NCBI GenBank assembly: GCA_937120535.1
Contig: CAKZJX010000033.1
Span: 1-60,683, forward strand
Reading direction: 5' to 3'
Source of the DNA: an uncultured Anaerolineae bacterium
Lineage (GTDB): Bacteria; Chloroflexota; Anaerolineae; Anaerolineales; Villigracilaceae
DNA: 60,683 nt
The notes beneath the pieces are model-generated. The model searched no databases. It was not told where the DNA came from and worked only from the letters and a program-made list of their open reading frames with translations. The position numbers and the translations under genes are program-made. The first letter of the stretch is position 1. Every line of letters begins with the position of its first letter. This document shows positions 20,566-31,341 of this stretch, piece after piece.

Positions 20566-21369
20566 ATGAACTTGAGCCTTGAACAACTCGAGAATCGCAT
20601 TCGGCAAATAGTAGAGTTCCAAAACTTGCTCTCCGGCCAGCCGGGAGAAGGTGTGGTCATCAGGCGTCTGGCTGAACTCCTGCATCGCCAGGCTTCTGAG
20701 GGCGCGGCCGTTCCGAACGTATACACTTTGGTCACCCACCCTGATGATGCCGCTCGCTGGGAGATCCCAGAGCTACTTGAGATGTTACGCAATGCCATCC
20801 GCACCATCGGCGCCGAACTCGGGATCACATTCTCTGCCCCTCCACTGCTTTCGCTCGCCACCGACTTGCGTATCGCACCTGGAGAGATCCAGATCATCGT
20901 CTCCTACAACCCCCAACCGGTCGGTGACACCCATGCCATGCCCAGCTCCTCCCCGGCCAAGGAGGAAGAATCGCCGATTCCAGAGAACGCCTTTCTGGTC
21001 ATCGAGGGCCGCCGGGTGTTTCCGCTAAACGCTCCTGTGATCAACATCGGCCGGCGCTTGGAAAATCACCTGGTGATTGACGATCCGCGGGTCTCGCGTC
21101 AACATGCCCAACTGCGGGCCATTCGCGGCCGCTACGTGATCTTTGACCTGAATTCCACCGGAGGAACCTTTGTCAATGGGCAACGAGTCAACCAGAGCAT
21201 TCTTTACCCGGGCGATGTGATCTCCCTGGCCGGCGTCACCCTGATCTACGGACAAGACACCCCACCGCCGCGCACCGACCTGCGTGATACTGGGCCAATC
21301 GCCTCCCAAGGCAAAGATCGCGACACTGTCGTCTTCCGCCCATTCTCCGATCCCAACTCTTCCTCATGA
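20566..21369 (+). CDS. FhaA-like protein (DUF3662-type N-terminus plus FHA domain)
   Basis: A 267-residue protein. Residues 1-115 resemble the DUF3662 domain found at the N-terminus of actinobacterial FhaA. Residues about 145-235 are a forkhead-associated domain with the phosphothreonine-binding residues in NIGRRLENHLVIDDPRVSRQH and NSTGGTFVNGQRV. It should bind phosphorylated partner proteins at the membrane. It overlaps the next FHA gene by four bases (ATGA). The order fhaA-fhaB-rodA-pbpA is that of the mycobacterial cell-wall operon, but no Ser/Thr kinase or phosphatase gene follows here. Confidence 0.85.
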   Translation: MNLSLEQLENRIRQIVEFQNLLSGQPGEGVVIRRLAELLHRQASEGAAVPNVYTLVTHPDDAARWEIPELLEMLRNAIRTIGAELGITFSAPPLLSLATDLRIAPGEIQIIVSYNPQPVGDTHAMPSSSPAKEEESPIPENAFLVIEGRRVFPLNAPVINIGRRLENHLVIDDPRVSRQHAQLRAIRGRYVIFDLNSTGGTFVNGQRVNQSILYPGDVISLAGVTLIYGQDTPPPRTDLRDTGPIASQGKDRDTVVFRPFSDPNSSS

Positions 21370-21836
21370 GCGACATCCTGGTCCTTGTCCTACGCCTAGC
21401 GATGGCCATTGCCCTATACGCTTTCCTAGGATGGGCTTTGCTCCTCCTTTGGAAAGACCTCCAAGAACGCGGCATTGCCCTAGTCACTCGTCGCGCCCTT
21501 CCCCTAGAGCTCCTGGTTCACCAGCCGAACAGCAGCACGACGCGGCGCGCCTTCTATCAACGCGAGCTCCTGATCGGCCGCGACCCTACGTGCGACATCT
21601 CCCTGCAAGATGAGACGGTTTCCGCACGTCACGCTCGCATCAGCTATCACCATGGTCAATGGTGGCTAGAAGACCTAGGCTCCACCAACGGCACACAGCT
21701 CAACCGCCTTCGGCTAGACACGCCCACCGTGCTCACCAGCGGCGATGAAATCGAATGCGGGCGCGTCGCCTTGGTGGTGAGCATTGGCATACCTACCGAC
21801 ACCTCCCCCACCGTTCGCCTCTCCAACTCCTCGTGA
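21366..21836 (+). CDS. FhaB-like membrane-anchored FHA protein
   Basis: A 156-residue protein: one N-terminal transmembrane segment (about 4-27) and a C-terminal FHA domain (about 55-150) with LLIGRDPTCDISLQDETVSARH and DLGSTNGTQLNRL, the complete phosphothreonine-pocket signature. The start overlaps the previous stop (ATGA) and its own stop overlaps the next GTG (GTGA). It is likely to recruit a phosphorylated regulator to the elongation machinery encoded next to it. Confidence 0.87.
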   Translation: MSDILVLVLRLAMAIALYAFLGWALLLLWKDLQERGIALVTRRALPLELLVHQPNSSTTRRAFYQRELLIGRDPTCDISLQDETVSARHARISYHHGQWWLEDLGSTNGTQLNRLRLDTPTVLTSGDEIECGRVALVVSIGIPTDTSPTVRLSNSS

Positions 21837-24316
21837 ATACCCCTTTGCGCTCTCGCCGTCTCTTTGGAGCCTCAGCGAGCTTCCTTGCCCTCTTTTCGCT
21901 GATCCTAACGCTCTCGCCGGCGGTGCGTGAGCGAACGTGGGAGGTGCCTCTGCGTTGGGATCACTGGTTTGGATTCGGCGTCTGGATCTTATGCTACCTA
22001 TTGGCCCAACGCTTTAGCCGGCGCTTGCTCTCCGATCCCGATCCCTACCTCCTAGCCGGCGCTTTCTTCTTGAGCGGATGGGGATTGCTCACCGTGTGGC
22101 GTCTTGAGCCCACCTTTGGCGCTCGCCAAACCGTCTGGCTAGCAATCGCAACCCTGGCCCTGGTGTTTGCGCTCCGCTATCCGAGGAATCTGGCCCTGCT
22201 ACAACGATACAAGTACCTGATCTTGCTGAGCGGCCTTCTACTCACCGCCCTGACATTGATCTTGGGCTCCAACCCGTCGGGCGCTGGGCCGCGCCTATGG
22301 ATCGGTGGAGCCAACCTGTACTTCCAACCCTCCGAACCGCTCAAACTGCTGCTGGTGATCTACCTGGCCGCCTATTTTGCCGGCCGCCTGCCGGTGGAAA
22401 CCTTCGAGTCCCAGCGCGCCCGCAACCTGCGCCAGATCCTATCCATCCCTCTGATCATCCCCACAGCCATCATGACCGGCTTGTCCTTGCTCATCTTGCT
22501 CATCCAGCGAGATCTAGGCACGGCCTCCCTGTTTCTACTCGTTTACTCCTTTATCCTGTTTCTTGCCACCGGTAAACGTCGCGTGCTGATCGTCACAGGG
22601 CTCGTACTGGCCTTCAGCGCGCTGATCGGCTACTTCTTCACGGAAGTGATTCAGGCCCGCCTCCAAGCCTGGCTCAACCCGTGGGACGATCCAAGTGGCC
22701 GCTCATACCAGATCATCCAATCCCTGCTAGCCGTTGCCAACGGCGGCGTCTTTGGGCGCGGCCCCGGCCTAGGGGCCCCCCGCTTGGTGCCAGTCGCCAT
22801 CTCCGACTTCATCTTTGTGGCCATGGTCGAAGAAACCGGTCTGATCGGCGCCGTCGGCCTGCTGGCTTGGATCGGCCTGCTCTTGGCCCGCGGCCTGCGC
22901 GCTGCCCTGCTGGCCCCCGATCGCTTTCAGCGCCTGCTGGCCGGCGGATTGACCATCTACCTCGGCCTGCAGAGCCTGCTGATCTTGGGCGGCAACCTAC
23001 GTCTGCTGCCTCTCACCGGCATCACCCTGCCCTTTGTCTCCTACGGCGGCTCGTCGCTGATGACCGCCTTTCTAGCCCTGGCCTTGCTGTTGCGCATCGG
23101 GAGCGATATCGAAGAAGAACCGGCCCCCCTGTCCAACCATCGCTCCTACACTCTGCTGGCCGGCCTCTTCTTCTTAGGCCTGTTCACCATCGCCCTGGGA
23201 GTTGGCTGGTGGACCATTGTGCGCGGTCCGGCCCTGCTGGCTCGGACCGACAACCCCCGTCGGTCGATCGCCGATCGCTACGTCCGTCGCGGTTCCCTGC
23301 TCGACCGCAACCACCAACCGATCACCGTGAGCGAACGGCAAGGGAGAGAATATACCCGCCTCTACCTCTACCCCGATCTAGCACCAATTATCGGCTACAC
23401 CCACCCCATCTACGGCCAGGCCGGTCTCGAAGCCACTCTCGACAACTACCTTCGCGGCCTACAAGGCAACCCCACGCGCCTTCTGTGGTGGAACTTCCTG
23501 ATCTACGGCACCCCGCCGCCTGGCCTGGACGTGCGCCTCAGCCTTGACCTGTCTCTGCAGCGCACCGCTGACCGCCTGTTGGGTGCGCGGGCCGGCGCGA
23601 TCGTCCTGCTCAACGCCCAGAGCGGTGAAATCCTGGTCATGGCTTCCCATCCAACCTACGACCCGAACCTGCTGGACGAGACGGGTCCGCGCCTCCAAAC
23701 CGATCCCAACGCCCCCTTGCTCAACCGCGCCGCCCAGGGCAGCTATCCCCCCGCCTCCTTCCTGGACCCCTTGCTGATAGCCCACTTCGGGCCAGATGCC
23801 TCTCCCTCGGCAGATCAACGGCGCGCCTTCCTCGACCAGCTCGGCCTCTACCGAGCTCCCAACCTGCATCTACCGGTGGCCCAGCCGGCGCGCCACGACA
23901 CGCTGCGCGTCAGCCCGCTCCAGATGGCCTTGGCCTACGCTTGCCTGAGCAATCGGGGGACCCTGCCGGCCGGCCGCATCGTCCTGGCGGTGAACACACC
24001 CGCCCAGGGATGGGTGATCCTGCCGGCCCTCGACCAACCGCGCCCCGTTCTCGAAGCCGACAAGGCCCAACAGGCCGCTGAACAGTGGCAAGTGCCGGAT
24101 CGCCCCTTCTGGAGGGTCAGCGCTCTCTCCCAAGAAAACCGCCGATCGTTCACCTGGCTTGCGATGGGCACCCTCCCCAACTGGCAAAGCGTCCCACTGA
24201 CCCTGGTGGTCCTGCTGGAAGAATCCAACCTCCCCTTAGCAACCTGGATCGGTGAAACCCTGATGCATGAAACACTCAGGCCTCGCTTGTTCTCCCAGGC
24301 TCTACCCAATCACTAA
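21833..24316 (+). CDS. RodA/FtsW (SEDS) glycosyltransferase fused to a degenerate transpeptidase-like domain
   Basis: An 827-residue fusion. Residues about 10-425 form a SEDS peptidoglycan polymerase with the usual multiple membrane helices and the late motif PFVSYGGSSLMTAFLALALL. After another membrane helix (about 440-460) comes a periplasmic part resembling class B penicillin-binding proteins, with the pbpA-like DRNHQPITVSERQGREYTR, AGLEATLDNYLRG and GAIVLLNAQSGEILVMASHP. The SxxK site reads SFLD (Ser642 to Asp645), so the catalytic lysine is missing, and no KTG motif is found before the C-terminus. The start is the GTG overlapping the FHA stop. The polymerase half should be active; the transpeptidase half probably is structural, activating the polymerase as PBPs do. 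Confidence 0.87.
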   Translation: MNTPLRSRRLFGASASFLALFSLILTLSPAVRERTWEVPLRWDHWFGFGVWILCYLLAQRFSRRLLSDPDPYLLAGAFFLSGWGLLTVWRLEPTFGARQTVWLAIATLALVFALRYPRNLALLQRYKYLILLSGLLLTALTLILGSNPSGAGPRLWIGGANLYFQPSEPLKLLLVIYLAAYFAGRLPVETFESQRARNLRQILSIPLIIPTAIMTGLSLLILLIQRDLGTASLFLLVYSFILFLATGKRRVLIVTGLVLAFSALIGYFFTEVIQARLQAWLNPWDDPSGRSYQIIQSLLAVANGGVFGRGPGLGAPRLVPVAISDFIFVAMVEETGLIGAVGLLAWIGLLLARGLRAALLAPDRFQRLLAGGLTIYLGLQSLLILGGNLRLLPLTGITLPFVSYGGSSLMTAFLALALLLRIGSDIEEEPAPLSNHRSYTLLAGLFFLGLFTIALGVGWWTIVRGPALLARTDNPRRSIADRYVRRGSLLDRNHQPITVSERQGREYTRLYLYPDLAPIIGYTHPIYGQAGLEATLDNYLRGLQGNPTRLLWWNFLIYGTPPPGLDVRLSLDLSLQRTADRLLGARAGAIVLLNAQSGEILVMASHPTYDPNLLDETGPRLQTDPNAPLLNRAAQGSYPPASFLDPLLIAHFGPDASPSADQRRAFLDQLGLYRAPNLHLPVAQPARHDTLRVSPLQMALAYACLSNRGTLPAGRIVLAVNTPAQGWVILPALDQPRPVLEADKAQQAAEQWQVPDRPFWRVSALSQENRRSFTWLAMGTLPNWQSVPLTLVVLLEESNLPLATWIGETLMHETLRPRLFSQALPNH

Positions 24317-24427: not shown

Positions 24428-25108
24428 ATGACCATCTCCTTGATTCACCCCGTCAATGGTCCGATTACCCAAAAATTTGGTGAGAATCCAGAGTACTACT
24501 CCCAATGGGGCTTTCCGGGTCACAACGGCATTGACTTTGCCGTTCCGAATGGGACCCCAGTCGTAGCCGCAGCTGATGGGACGGTAGACAAGATCGCCTT
24601 CGAAAACGGCGGCTACGGCAACTACGTCCGTCTAAAGCACCTAGCTGGAACGAGTGTCTTTTATACCTATTATGCTCACTTGATGCACACTGTTGTTGCC
24701 GTCGGCCAATCGGTCAAAGCCGGCACTGTAATCGCCTACAGCGACGACACTGGCGCCAGCACGGGTCCTCATCTCCACTTTGGCCTACGCTCATCCAATC
24801 AAAGCGGTCCTTATAAAGGATACATGGACCCCCTCCCCCATCTATCCTCGCCCCAACCAACTCCACCCTCCTACGCCGACTTTCCCGGCTCCATCCCCTT
24901 ATCCGACGTCAAATTTGAAGTCATCGTACACGAACTCAACGTACGCAACGGACCAGGAATTACGTACAGCATCGTAGACAAACTGAAACGGGGCACCGTG
25001 ATCACCCCACGACGCATCCACTCCCAAAGCGCTTGGGTAGAAATCGCCAACGGGAAATGGTGTGCGATCACTTTCAGCGGGTCAGCCTTTGTGAAAATGG
25101 TGAAATAA
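24428..25108 (+). CDS. M23-family metallopeptidase with C-terminal SH3-like domain
   Basis: A 226-residue LytM/lysostaphin-type endopeptidase. The zinc ligands are His32 and Asp36 (HNGID) and His117 in GPHLHF (His115-Leu-His117), with a catalytic His84 in YYAHL. A proline-rich linker (about 128-150) leads to a bacterial SH3-like domain with ELNVRNGPGITYSIVDKL, which binds cell wall. It should cut peptidoglycan cross-bridges. It has no signal peptide or membrane anchor, unusual for a secreted wall hydrolase and more like phage endolysins. It is a single gene with its own promoter. Confidence 0.88.
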   Translation: MTISLIHPVNGPITQKFGENPEYYSQWGFPGHNGIDFAVPNGTPVVAAADGTVDKIAFENGGYGNYVRLKHLAGTSVFYTYYAHLMHTVVAVGQSVKAGTVIAYSDDTGASTGPHLHFGLRSSNQSGPYKGYMDPLPHLSSPQPTPPSYADFPGSIPLSDVKFEVIVHELNVRNGPGITYSIVDKLKRGTVITPRRIHSQSAWVEIANGKWCAITFSGSAFVKMVK

Positions 25109-29264: not shown

Positions 29265-29722
29265 CTTCCACCCCCGAACAACTCAGCGATGCGCCGGGCG
29301 CGATAATCGAAAATCTGCTCCAACCGCCGGTGGATCCACAAAGCGTGCACCACATCGCCCAGCCACGCAAAAGGTGGGATATACGTCACATGGTCGGTCA
29401 TCCACACCCCATTCCCCTGGGGCCGAAAGCGATGCTCATGATACCAAAAGCGATAGGGTCCTAGGCGTTGCTCATCCACGAAATATTCGCCCGGACGCAC
29501 ATGGGCGATCTCAGTCAACCAGACAGAGCGCCACCCCGGAACGAACTGCACCCGATACTCGATAATCTGCCCCTCATACATCGGCTCATCGGCGCCAGCG
29601 ATGATCTCGAAATGCAGATCGGGCGGCGTGATCTCATTCAGATTTTTGGGATTAGAAAAGTACGCCCACACCTCTTCGATCGATGCCGAAAGAAACTGTT
29701 TGCGATGCAGTCGGTAGATCAT
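29261..29722 (-). CDS. SRPBCC-family (START-like) protein
   Basis: A 153-residue helix-grip protein of the SRPBCC/polyketide-cyclase-like group, seen in FLSASIEEVWAYFSNPKNLNEITPP at the N-terminus (quoted loosely by position 8-32) and the beta-strands ending at VTYIPPFAWLGDVV. Family members bind hydrophobic ligands; many have no known activity. The start is the ATG that overlaps the murE stop (29719-29722); a GTG 12 bases upstream is less likely. It is sandwiched between murE and the acetyltransferase with four-base overlaps on both sides. Confidence 0.8.
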   Translation of the reverse strand: MIYRLHRKQFLSASIEEVWAYFSNPKNLNEITPPDLHFEIIAGADEPMYEGQIIEYRVQFVPGWRSVWLTEIAHVRPGEYFVDEQRLGPYRFWYHEHRFRPQGNGVWMTDHVTYIPPFAWLGDVVHALWIHRRLEQIFDYRARRIAELFGGGR

Positions 29723-31341
29723 CCCGTACACCACTCCTCTTCAGGACGATCCTGAGTAGGAAGATAGGGCATAGCCGGCCCCGGCACACCGAGCAACTCG
29801 GCCAAAGCAGCCCGCATTGCAATGCGGTCATCCCATGAATACTCCACTGTTCCAAAACACATCGACTGCTCATGACCCTTCCCACAAGCCAACACGACAT
29901 CGCCCGGCCGGGCCAGCCGAACCGCAAAGCGGATTGCCTCCCCCCGATCGGGGATGCGCCAGAACGTCTCGCCCTCGCGTCCGCCGTGCGATCGGATGCC
30001 TGTGGCCATGGTCTCCAAGATCTCGTTCAACGACTCAGTGCGCGGGTCCTCAGCAGTCAGCACGGTGTAATCGGCCAACTCCCCGGCCACCTCAGCCATC
30101 AAGCGGCGTTTCTCCCGATCCCGCAGGCCGGCCGAGCCAAACACCACAATCACCCGTCCCGCCGGCCGCCCTTCCGCTTGAGCATGGGCCATCTGCCGAG
30201 CAGTCTTCAAGGCCTGTTGCAAGGCGTTTGGCGTATGTGCAAAATCCACGATGGCGGTGAACGGCTGTCCCATGTCGATCCGCTCCATGCGGCCGGGGAT
30301 ACCCTCCAACGAAGCAATGCCGCGCGCCGCTGTCTGTGGATCCACGCTCAGACCGTAGACCGTTGCTGTCAGAGCGGCCAAACAATTCGAAACGTTATAA
30401 GCGCCCACCAGCGGGCTGGTCACACGAACCCGAAAATCGGACGAGACGGCAACAAACTCAATCCCCGCCGGCGCATAGGCCACCTGTTCCGCCCACACAT
30501 CGGCGCCGGCCTGCAAACTGTAGCAACGCTGGCTGAGCGCCGGGCGTTGGCGCACCAGGTCAGACAAAAAGCCATACGACGAATCGTCACGGTTCAACAC
30601 CGCCAAACGAGGCGGAGGCCGATCCACAAATTTCGGTTGCGTCCACTCCAGGCTCTCGAACAGCCGCGCTTTGGCAGCGCGGTAATTCTCATACGAACCA
30701 TGCTCGTCCAAGTGTTCATGGGTGATGTTAGTGATCACCCCGACGTCGAACTCACAAGCATCCACCCGATGTTGCGACCAGCCATGCGAGGTAGTTTCCA
30801 ACACCACATGGCTTAGGCCGGCGGCAACCATGCGCGCCAGATACGCCTGGACGTCATGGGCATCGGGGGTGGTGACGTGAAAGCCCGTATCCAACACCTG
30901 ATCGCCGATCACAGCATGGACGGTGGAGATCATGCCGGCCCTCAAGCCGGCCTCCAGCAAGATGCGGTAGATCAGGTTGGTGGTGGTAGTCTTCCCGTCG
31001 GTGCCGGTCACACCGATCACGTTCAGGTGGCGGGCCGGCCAATCGTAAAAGGCCGCGGCCAGCCAGGTTAGAGCGCGACGCGTGTTCTCCAAGCGCAGGT
31101 AAGGCACTGTACCCAAGCGGGCCGGCAACGCCCGCTCCCCGATCGCCGCCGCCGCTCCATTGCGGATGGCCTGCTCGATATAATCATGCCCATCGGCAAC
31201 GCCTCCCCTCATCGCCACAAACAAGTTGCCGGCTTGAACCCGACGGCTATCGATCGCGATGCCTGTGATCGTCACGTCAGGGATCTCGGAGGGAGGGGCA
31301 TACGGAAAGTCAAGGAAGAGATGGGAAAGCGGTTTGTGCAT
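29719..31341 (-). CDS. murE: MurE, UDP-MurNAc-tripeptide synthetase
   Basis: A 540-residue Mur ligase that adds the third amino acid to the peptidoglycan stem peptide in the cytoplasm. ATP site GVTGTDGKTTTTNL; central motif FDVGVITNITHEHLDEHGSY; C-terminal domain with VVFGSAGLRDREKR. The residue-selecting motif reads AEDPRTES in place of the usual DNPR. The arginine, which contacts meso-diaminopimelate in known enzymes, is kept, so the third residue could be diaminopimelate, but ornithine also occurs in this phylum. It stands apart from other mur genes, behind the ATP synthase genes and a terminator. No clear ribosome site precedes the ATG. Confidence 0.9.
   Translation of the reverse strand: MHKPLSHLFLDFPYAPPSEIPDVTITGIAIDSRRVQAGNLFVAMRGGVADGHDYIEQAIRNGAAAAIGERALPARLGTVPYLRLENTRRALTWLAAAFYDWPARHLNVIGVTGTDGKTTTTNLIYRILLEAGLRAGMISTVHAVIGDQVLDTGFHVTTPDAHDVQAYLARMVAAGLSHVVLETTSHGWSQHRVDACEFDVGVITNITHEHLDEHGSYENYRAAKARLFESLEWTQPKFVDRPPPRLAVLNRDDSSYGFLSDLVRQRPALSQRCYSLQAGADVWAEQVAYAPAGIEFVAVSSDFRVRVTSPLVGAYNVSNCLAALTATVYGLSVDPQTAARGIASLEGIPGRMERIDMGQPFTAIVDFAHTPNALQQALKTARQMAHAQAEGRPAGRVIVVFGSAGLRDREKRRLMAEVAGELADYTVLTAEDPRTESLNEILETMATGIRSHGGREGETFWRIPDRGEAIRFAVRLARPGDVVLACGKGHEQSMCFGTVEYSWDDRIAMRAALAELLGVPGPAMPYLPTQDRPEEEWCTG

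Follow-up and report, generated by a model that had tools for sequence, protein, structure and literature searches.

The window analysed here, a stretch of 60,683 nucleotides from an uncultured bacterium of the class Anaerolineae, encodes a SEDS polymerase and a class B PBP as a single chain, in which the transpeptidase site of the PBP half has been lost. We consider it probable that this domain is an ancient pseudo-transpeptidase, kept as the partner or activator of the SEDS protein, and that cross-links are made by other enzymes.

The fusion gene and its neighbours

The SEDS-PBP fusion (positions 21833..24316, forward strand; 827 aa) was defined by its open reading frame, profile matches and an AlphaFold2 model. 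It starts with GTG at 21833 and has its stop codon at 24314-24316. The SEDS half (residues 1-430, 21833..23122) matches PF01098 over aa 94-423 (1.9e-69; 234.8 bits against a cut-off of 26.4), and in the model it resembles FtsW (8bh1) with a fold similarity Z of 36.5. D325 (codon 22805-22807) corresponds to the catalytic residue of RodA, for it aligns with the position occupied by Asp in RodA 6bar and by Ala in 6bas; in Thermus RodA the catalytic residue is D255. In E. coli RodA it is D262 (PMC6207328, excerpt). Asp occupies this column in 203/203 SEDS rows of our collection and in 133/133 of those with a dead PBP (dead rows), and at each of 12 SEDS positions compared the residue of the window is present in at least 131 of the 133 dead rows. 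The scores for both equivalogs fall under their cut-offs (TIGR02614 for FtsW, 239.4 bits against 337.5; TIGR02210 for RodA, 203.3 against 336.7), thus by the equivalog rule the fusion is neither FtsW nor RodA. The genome holds two further SEDS genes, which we took for FtsW and RodA, with the fusion as a third SEDS polymerase. A plasmid search returned no record with a place spanning 80% of the query.

In the model, whose pLDDT for the fusion is 91.5, the PBP half begins with a helix (residues 436-463, 23138..23221) that, by analogy with class B PBPs, would be a transmembrane anchor. It is followed by the pedestal (residues 464-570, 23222..23542), a weak match to the PbpA dimerisation domain PF21922 (25.9 bits, slightly below the cut-off of 27), and by the pseudo-transpeptidase domain (residues 571-827, 23543..24313), which has the PBPA fold and no catalytic motif. 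Both pedestal and head of a class B PBP are recognisable in the predicted structure, and the closest fold is that of M. tuberculosis PBPA (3upn), with Z of 37.6 and rmsd of 2.8 over 334 aligned residues for the segment 478-816. With PF01098 and a PbpA-type class B PBP half in one reading frame, the natural fusion claimed in the initial annotation is real, and the structure prediction proposed there returned a half confidently predicted to fold as a PBPA-like class B PBP. The proposed domain search gave a divided answer: PF00905 scores above its cut-off (41.6 bits against 22.1), but the match is confined to positions 1-44 of the 299 in the profile (aa 588-642).

Two FHA genes precede the fusion on the same strand, encoding FHA protein 1 (20566..21369, 267 aa, FhaA-like; PF00498, 1.2e-19) and FHA protein 2 (21366..21836, 156 aa, FhaB-like; NF049868, 4e-24). 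The stop of the former overlaps the start of the latter in ATGA, and the TGA of the latter overlaps the GTG start of the fusion in GTGA. The N-terminus of FHA protein 2 is hydrophobic, as judged by eye. Protein 1 scores under the cut-off for FhaA_N (0.0013; 19.5 bits against 25) and protein 2 under that for the FhaB equivalog NF049868 (85.4 bits against 125), and by their profile scores both are classed as FhaA/FhaB-like only. Of the 56 fused-dead loci whose upstream sequence spans 1.8 kb or more, 44 have two FHA matches upstream, counted in a fixed interval of -2.6 kb to +0.6 kb (56 of the 109 fused-dead loci).

The order FHA, FHA, SEDS, PBP on one strand is that of the actinobacterial RodA-PbpA operon, from which the window differs in that its SEDS and PBP are fused, the transpeptidase is dead and there is no kinase nearby. 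The actinobacterial operon SCO3843-SCO3848 comprises FHA, FHA, phosphatase, FtsW/RodA, PBP and Ser/Thr kinase (PMC6273383, excerpt). In gene names the actinobacterial order is fhaA-fhaB-pstP-rodA-pbpA-pknA-pknB, pstP encoding a PP2C phosphatase. A kinase match, counted anywhere within each locus stretch, occurs in no fused-dead locus that extends 4 kb or more downstream (0/31), upstream (0/35) or to both sides (0/28), and the five kinase matches of the genome all lie on other contigs, none adjoining the fusion. Synteny and kinase scans therefore agree with the initial description of an actinobacterial-like order minus the kinase. Kinase matches are present in 10/12 fused-active loci and in 4/8 separate-active loci extending 4 kb or more downstream. 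The idea that kinase loss distinguishes the dead form was rejected, since many listed active Chloroflexota loci have FHA and no kinase.

Loss of the transpeptidase site

All three catalytic motifs of class B PBPs (SxxK, SxN and K[TS]G) are absent from the fusion. SFLD (residues 642-645, 23756..23767, forward strand), at the start of a predicted helix (641-652), occupies the SxxK site and was placed by phmmer opposite STVK of PBP2 (6tii). According to the alignment columns, VSA (about residues 762-764, 24116..24124, forward strand), on a predicted strand (759-768), stands in the KTG column. The SxN column is a gap; a mid-domain stretch including this site is also missing from most of the window's family and from families f8 and f4. 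A pattern scan of residues 431-827 found no S..K, S.N, K[TS]G or R[TS]G, and the sole lysine in this region is K744. The missing SxxK and KTG, as first reported from this gene, are thus confirmed. Ser642 itself is incidental: Ser is found in its column in 14 of 107 dead rows. PBPs with an altered SxxK have reportedly been described in Streptomyces.

Relocation of SxxK or KTG within the PBP half was rejected on the pattern scan and the list of conserved columns: in fused-dead PBP halves no Lys, His or Cys is conserved at 90%, and the single Ser conserved at this level, S605, is also kept in active rows. The evidence that the initial annotation had named against itself, another Ser-x-x-Lys and a KTG-like motif in the correct sites, was sought in the sequence and none was found.

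Purifying selection acts on the dead domain: dN/dS lies at 0.071-0.272 in 13 of 14 pairs taken from 215 close ones (the pairs share loci, and in 4 of the 13 the dS of the head region exceeds 1); for the pair L012/L014 dS is about 0.01 and dN/dS uninformative. The absence of motifs together with these values bears out the view of the PBP half as a preserved pseudoenzyme. In 12 of the 13 pairs dN/dS is higher for the head than for the SEDS half. Conservation in the neighbourhood of SxxK is 0.319 in fused-dead against 0.641 in active rows, and that of the anchor helix is 0.375 against 0.420; for the pedestal the order is reversed (0.519 against 0.437), perhaps in part because the active rows come from several phyla. 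Residues conserved in the dead partner are R471, D473, N474, R476, R486, G487, R509, G521, E533, L540 and G542.

Distribution and origin of the dead form

Among the 203 SEDS rows, de-duplicated for identical SEDS segments only, no motif was found in 108 fused and 24 separate rows, and all three motifs in 10 fused and 31 separate ones. Two fused rows have the first two motifs and then a contig end, one fused row (L032) has S..K only, one separate row (L190) has KTG only, and for 26 no PBP was found. At least four dead rows are cut by contig ends (L042, L063, L097 and L173), L173 being unsafe. The fusion has counterparts in Levilinea saccharolytica KIBI-1 (L093) and Leptolinea sp. HRD-7 (L085). 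Within the window's order 56/56 PBP halves read are dead, including one with S..K alone and two cut before KTG. Sorting of 120 class genomes by hand gave 29 dead (of which G090 rests on the unsafe L173), 9 active, 5 undetermined and 77 with no orthologue seen, so that the dead form is present in 29 of the 38 genomes scored. The suggested check of the missing lysine in relatives thus revealed a widespread loss. What had been taken for a trait of this gene is real as far as the site is concerned, but the loss is common to the PBP halves read in the order and to most scored genomes of the class. Its recurrence in many independent genomes rules out an assembly error, and decay of a single gene is ruled out by the motif-less rows, fused and separate, and by selection.

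On a SEDS tree of 148 rows, thinned from the 203 (177 with the PBP read), the active and dead states change twice and the fused and separate states eight times, several of the latter changes falling within the dead clade. The quick tree shows two active/dead changes because of L217, which belongs to a different class, yet is dead and shares the xCP state described below; this tree scores 59.3 log units below one grouping all dead rows. A tree that unites the 107 dead rows has a p-AU of 0.935, and a single origin is thus not rejected; the branch of the single loss has a modest support of 77 and is not starred. The SxN column is present in 56 of the 107 dead rows, with Cys in mid-position in 56/56 and xCP in 44, while in active rows it reads SxN (SCN in 16/40). 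In this alignment xCP with its middle Cys is a shared derived state of the dead rows, and favours a single loss. Transpeptidase chemistry was probably lost once, in an early Anaerolineae ancestor in which the polymerase and its partner were two genes. We infer that the loss preceded the fusions and that fusion arose more than once.

The idea that fusion brought about the loss can be dismissed, as unfused dead pairs (24 rows) and fused live ones exist. The fusion is genuine, but it is not what is rare here, the fused and separate states having changed eight times. Fusions with fully active transpeptidase motifs occur in Coriobacteriia and other Actinomycetota (L128, L129, L133, L134, L138, L143, L145, L149 and L150). 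They share with the window the domain order in one chain and, where the flank is present, FHA matches upstream, and differ from it in having SxxK, SxN and KTG as well as the kinase matches mentioned above. Judging by their numbering (523-950), PDB chains of Atopobium parvulum with beta-lactams probably represent the PBP portion of a live fusion of this kind. Natural SEDS-PBP fusions as such had already been noted (PMC10449877, excerpt). In the openly licensed PMC literature, no natural dead SEDS partner is named in titles or abstract openings among the matches listed, and no paper on Anaerolineae peptidoglycan synthases was found.

Discussion

The fusion would act as a SEDS peptidoglycan polymerase with a class B PBP partner built in, its activity and substrate being assumed. 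The transpeptidase of the partner would be dead by descent, and we propose that the dead PBP was retained because a SEDS protein needs a PBP for its assembly and switching on. Cross-linking would be performed by the MecA_N-type PBP, class A PBPs, FtsI/PBP2-type PBPs or L,D-transpeptidases of the same cell, and the FHA proteins would presumably link phosphothreonine signalling to the synthase. We infer the activity of the polymerase, its activation or scaffolding by the dead domain, and this role of the FHA proteins. Our results suggest that many Anaerolineae preserve the partner for a function other than catalysis, for instance to switch on the polymerase.

Known synthases offer precedents. 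The RodA-PBP2 and FtsW-FtsI complexes (6pl5, 8tj3, 8bh1) share with the fusion the SEDS fold, the catalytic Asp, the anchor helix and the pedestal, and differ in consisting of two chains with a live transpeptidase. RodA is activated by changes in the PBP2 pedestal and inactivated by the substitution D262A (PMC6207328, excerpt). As far as the excerpt of PMC10449877 goes, RodA alone has residual activity and is stimulated in vitro by PBP2 or by the PBP2 membrane helix, which suffices alone; activation therefore need not explain retention of the whole head, whose role may just as well lie in binding of glycan, stem peptide or another protein. In S. aureus, FtsW requires PBP1, and septum progression persists, although reduced, with an inactive PBP1 transpeptidase, while correct septal architecture requires this activity (PMC9426605, excerpt). 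The pbp1* protein thus resembles the dead head as a SEDS partner without transpeptidase activity, but it is a laboratory mutant, whereas the Anaerolineae state is natural and old.

A different reading, possible but rather doubtful, and overlapping with the preferred one so that the two do not exclude each other, is that the head docks or guides glycan, recruiting or feeding a separate transpeptidase (the MecA_N-type PBP or an L,D-transpeptidase) that took over cross-linking. The proposed check for active class B PBPs elsewhere in the genome was positive: three (L001, L002 and L003) are intact. L002 is the MecA_N-type PBP (PF05223, PF03717 and full PF00905), and its relatives (E up to 1e-60) are present in 27/29 dead-form and 6/9 active-form genomes, in 4/5 undetermined ones and in 34/77 of those with no orthologue seen; the median number of matches to YkuD, the L,D-transpeptidase profile, is 4 in the 29 dead-form genomes, 1 in the 9 active-form and 3 in the 77 others. 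These differences, as well as selection on the head fold, speak for docking, but the counts are raw, with kin included, absence is defined by cut-off, and G090 is among the dead-form genomes; moreover, L002 relatives are frequent in active-form genomes too, and the L002 and YkuD genes sit on contigs other than that of the fusion.

The remaining explanations appear weaker. It is unlikely that the dead partner serves as an escape from beta-lactams, keeping the polymerase active under the drug by being non-acylatable. No SxxK acylation site remains, many penicillins do not hit L,D-transpeptidases, and these are more numerous in dead-form genomes, but the genome retains PBPs with all three motifs, which are presumably sensitive. 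A substrate other than lipid II, which would make the fusion no peptidoglycan synthase, could be imagined from the subthreshold equivalog scores and the two other SEDS genes; this is very improbable in view of the near-invariance of the twelve SEDS positions in dead rows and the synteny resembling the actinobacterial FtsW/RodA-PBP operon. Slightly more improbable still is that the PBP half is a functionless, decaying remnant carried by the fused polymerase, as the mid-domain deletions, the variable SxxK region and the elevated dN/dS of the head might suggest: dN/dS remains low, the PBP half is in frame in 109 fused and 24 separate rows, dead PBP genes are retained also when separate, and a full fold is confidently predicted.

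SEDS polymerases are thought to be restrained until the cognate transpeptidase is in place, which avoids uncross-linked strands (PMC6207328, excerpt). On balance, and a little less firmly than for the role of the domain, we favour the view that a deep Anaerolineae clade, comprising the entire order of the window as sampled and the majority of the scored families, has natural pseudo-transpeptidase PBPs, uncoupled from cross-linking throughout its radiation. Uncoupling of the SEDS partner would place polymerisation and cross-linking on different proteins, and cells with a dead partner must tie their strands together in another way. The fusion also carries a warning for annotation, as PF00905 is matched above the cut-off, yet there is no Ser/Lys pair of SxxK for covalent penicillin binding. 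If this view is true, the clade represents a natural separation-of-function experiment bearing on the activation of a SEDS polymerase by its class B PBP, and the residues conserved in the dead partner, from R471 to G542, are a candidate activation interface.

Catalytic motifs and predicted fold of the PBP half

The initial annotation described the gene as a SEDS polymerase joined to a class B PBP whose transpeptidase half lacks SxxK and KTG, and both losses were borne out. PF00905 covers the fusion only over profile positions 1-44, and a pattern scan of residues 431-827 found no S..K, S.N, K[TS]G or R[TS]G. SFLD (642-645), to which STVK of PBP2 was aligned by phmmer, opens helix 641-652. The predicted fold is nevertheless that of a PBP: AlphaFold2, given 48 sequences, yielded a model with mean pLDDT 91.5 and pTM 0.87, in which residues 478-816 match the fold of M. 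tuberculosis PBPA with Z of 37.6 (2.8 A, 334 aligned, 24% identity). Residues 431-827 contain one lysine, and a re-invented acyl-enzyme appears unlikely from the alignment, because no lysine is conserved at 90% across the PBP half.

Gene order and kinases

The window lies on contig 33 of a 140-contig, 3.11 Mb genome. Overlaps of ATGA, between FHA protein 1 (20566-21369, + strand) and FHA protein 2 (21366-21836, +), and of GTGA, between the latter and the fusion gene (21833-24316, +), suggest that the three genes form an operon with translational coupling. Directly downstream lies the gene of an M23 peptidase that carries an SH3-like domain (24428-25108, +), a possible operon member; no such gene was seen at the relatives' loci listed in the neighbour survey, which covered genera other than the window's own. 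A MurE-like ligase, recognised by eye at 29719-31341 (-), places another peptidoglycan gene about 5 kb off. Among 56 fused loci with a dead PBP (one without the three motifs) and at least 1.8 kb of upstream sequence, FHA matches within the fixed interval examined around the fusion numbered two in 44, one in 4 and none in 8.

The FHA-FHA-SEDS-PBP order without a kinase, also proposed initially, recurs beyond the window. With the genome's own kinases as queries, fused-dead loci gave a match in 0/31 cases where the downstream flank measured at least 4 kb and in 0/35 where the upstream flank did. The corresponding counts were 5/5 and 7/7 for fused loci with all three motifs (active), Actinomycetota by record titles, and 4/8 and 2/5 for separate active pairs. 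Since most active Chloroflexota loci lack a kinase as well, its absence goes with the phylum and not with the dead form. In six Actinomycetota loci (L128, L129, L133, L134, L143, L150) kinase matches flank FHA-FHA-fusion on either side, and the fusion has live transpeptidase motifs. The five kinase matches of the window's genome, all on other contigs, may be the source of phosphothreonines for the FHA domains.

Distribution and origin of the dead state

A match is present in 60 of 61 genomes (the window's own and 60 relatives). When motifs were read by alignment to two intact PBPs of the same genome (L001 and L003), 0/56 PBP halves of the window's order had the full set; L032 retains S..K alone, and L042 and L063 stop before the KTG column. 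Among 203 SEDS rows, 108 fused and 24 separate had no motif, 10 fused and 31 separate had all three, two fused had the first two before a contig end, one had S..K only (L032) and one KTG only (L190); in 26 no PBP was found. Contig ends truncate at least four of the dead rows (L042, L063, L097 and L173, the last unsafe). When 120 genomes of the class were sorted by hand, the dead form was assigned to 29 (one, G090, depending on L173) and the active form to 9; 5 were undetermined or mixed, and no orthologue was seen in 77. Active rows of the class belong to families f54 (L166, L203), f20 (L175), f48 (L198) and f44 (L196, L197, L200, L202, L204). Outside the class but within the phylum, all three motifs were present in 22 of the 23 PBPs read, the exception being L217, fused and dead.

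In a quick maximum-likelihood tree built from 148 SEDS rows, the active/dead state changes twice (the mixed row L190 standing outside this count) and the fused/separate state eight times, several of them within the dead clade. L217 (genome G185, family f68) is placed with active separate pairs; judging by GCP at its SxN column, a state shared with the Anaerolineae dead clade, it may have arisen by transfer or reflect an older loss. Without L217, a single branch already separates the 106 dead rows from all others (support 77, not starred); with it, a tree constrained to hold all dead rows together beats the free one (p-AU 0.935). The SxN column is retained in 56 of 107 dead rows, with Cys in mid-position in 56/56 and xCP in 44, the pattern that an ancestral SCN would predict. 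Given these tree changes, the p-AU and the shared Cys/xCP state, the simplest account is one loss of the motifs in an unfused ancestor, followed, in an order that we infer, by several fusions and by mid-domain deletions in most of f1 (the window's family), in f8 and in f4. Two losses could also have produced the dead state.

Several individual loci deserve mention. Unfused dead PBPs L061 and L062 (f4) and L165 and L178 (f29), ORFs of 366-507 aa, have shortened heads (transpeptidase domains); the mid-domain has apparently been deleted on more than one occasion. The separate PBP at L190:1628-2767 (G065, f20) keeps KTG and carries a Glu-rich low-complexity run in place of the SxxK-SxN stretch, spanning a 9-base tandem repeat (AGTTCCCCA-like, 2038-2106). 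In L175, from a genome in the same genus, the PBP is fully intact; L190 is perhaps a fresh loss under way, or an assembly fault. Proteins of L075, L077 and L078, from MAG records titled Herpetosiphon, Chloroflexus and Anaerolinea thermophila, share 55-58% identity with that of the window; L077, where it is placed in the tree, falls among Anaerolineales rows, so some of these titles are probably in error.

Polymerase half and other transpeptidases

PF01098 matches residues 94-423 of the fusion (1.9e-69). D325, within SDFIF, aligns to a column that is Asp in RodA 6bar and Ala in 6bas, and is Asp in 203/203 SEDS rows, 133 of them with a dead partner. We take its counterpart to be D262 of E. coli RodA; according to PMC6207328, D262A abolishes RodA-PBP2 polymerase activity. 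By NCBIfam cut-offs this SEDS half is neither the FtsW nor the RodA equivalog. Of two further SEDS genes, that on contig C38, adjoining a MurD-like gene, is taken for FtsW and that on C24, with a PBP gene about 2 kb away, for RodA, both names being unscored and given from context and by eye.

Class B PBPs with intact motifs do occur elsewhere in the genome: L001, L003 and the MecA_N-type L002 have all three motifs, as do L004 and L005, with class A-like N-terminal parts (by eye), and there are seven matches to YkuD, the L,D-transpeptidase profile. The transpeptidase profile gave 4 to 9 matches per genome in the 41 genomes searched. L002 (G000:C27:8647-10899), with a lipoprotein-like N-terminus (by eye), has relatives (E up to 1e-60) in 71/120 class genomes, more commonly with the dead form (27/29 dead, 6/9 active, 34/77 none-seen; uncorrected for kinship). 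Median YkuD matches, likewise uncorrected, were 4, 1 and 3, respectively.

Retention of the dead half

Pairwise Nei-Gojobori dN/dS (own script) of the head in the 14 most similar pairs was 0.071-0.272 in 13, far below 1, exceeding that of the SEDS half in 12 of these and equal in one; the fourteenth (dS near 0.01, dN/dS 1.05) is uninformative. Mean conservation in 86 fused-dead, 21 separate-dead and 40 active rows was, respectively, 0.375, 0.484 and 0.420 for the anchor helix (436-463), 0.519, 0.522 and 0.437 for the pedestal (dimerisation domain), 0.514, 0.524 and 0.508 for the first part of the head, 0.319, 0.444 and 0.641 around SxxK, and 0.360, 0.429 and 0.559 for the late strands. Because the active rows come from several phyla, the dead-versus-active pedestal difference should not be overread; the telling contrast is between pedestal and old active site inside the dead set.

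A polymerase that stays invariant, a pedestal that is preserved and a head that is folded and under selection but dead make up the pattern that would be expected if the PBP half were retained as a partner for SEDS activation and assembly. Pedestal changes in PBP2 stimulate RodA (PMC6207328), and S. aureus FtsW requires PBP1, whose transpeptidase inactivation leaves septum progression reduced yet present, with faulty septal architecture (PMC9426605). According to PMC10449877, however, RodA shows residual activity on its own, and either PBP2 or just the PBP2 membrane helix stimulates it; because the helix suffices in E. coli, activation by itself may not explain the retained head. The main rival explanation is that the head binds strands or recruits a separate transpeptidase.

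Natural SEDS-PBP fusions are already known (PMC10449877), the Atopobium chains numbered 523-950 probably being a further one. Transpeptidase-dead PBPs are known from the laboratory, whereas the dead state in the window's order is natural. Among the matches listed from openly licensed PMC literature, titles and abstract openings name no naturally dead class B PBP as an order-wide SEDS partner.
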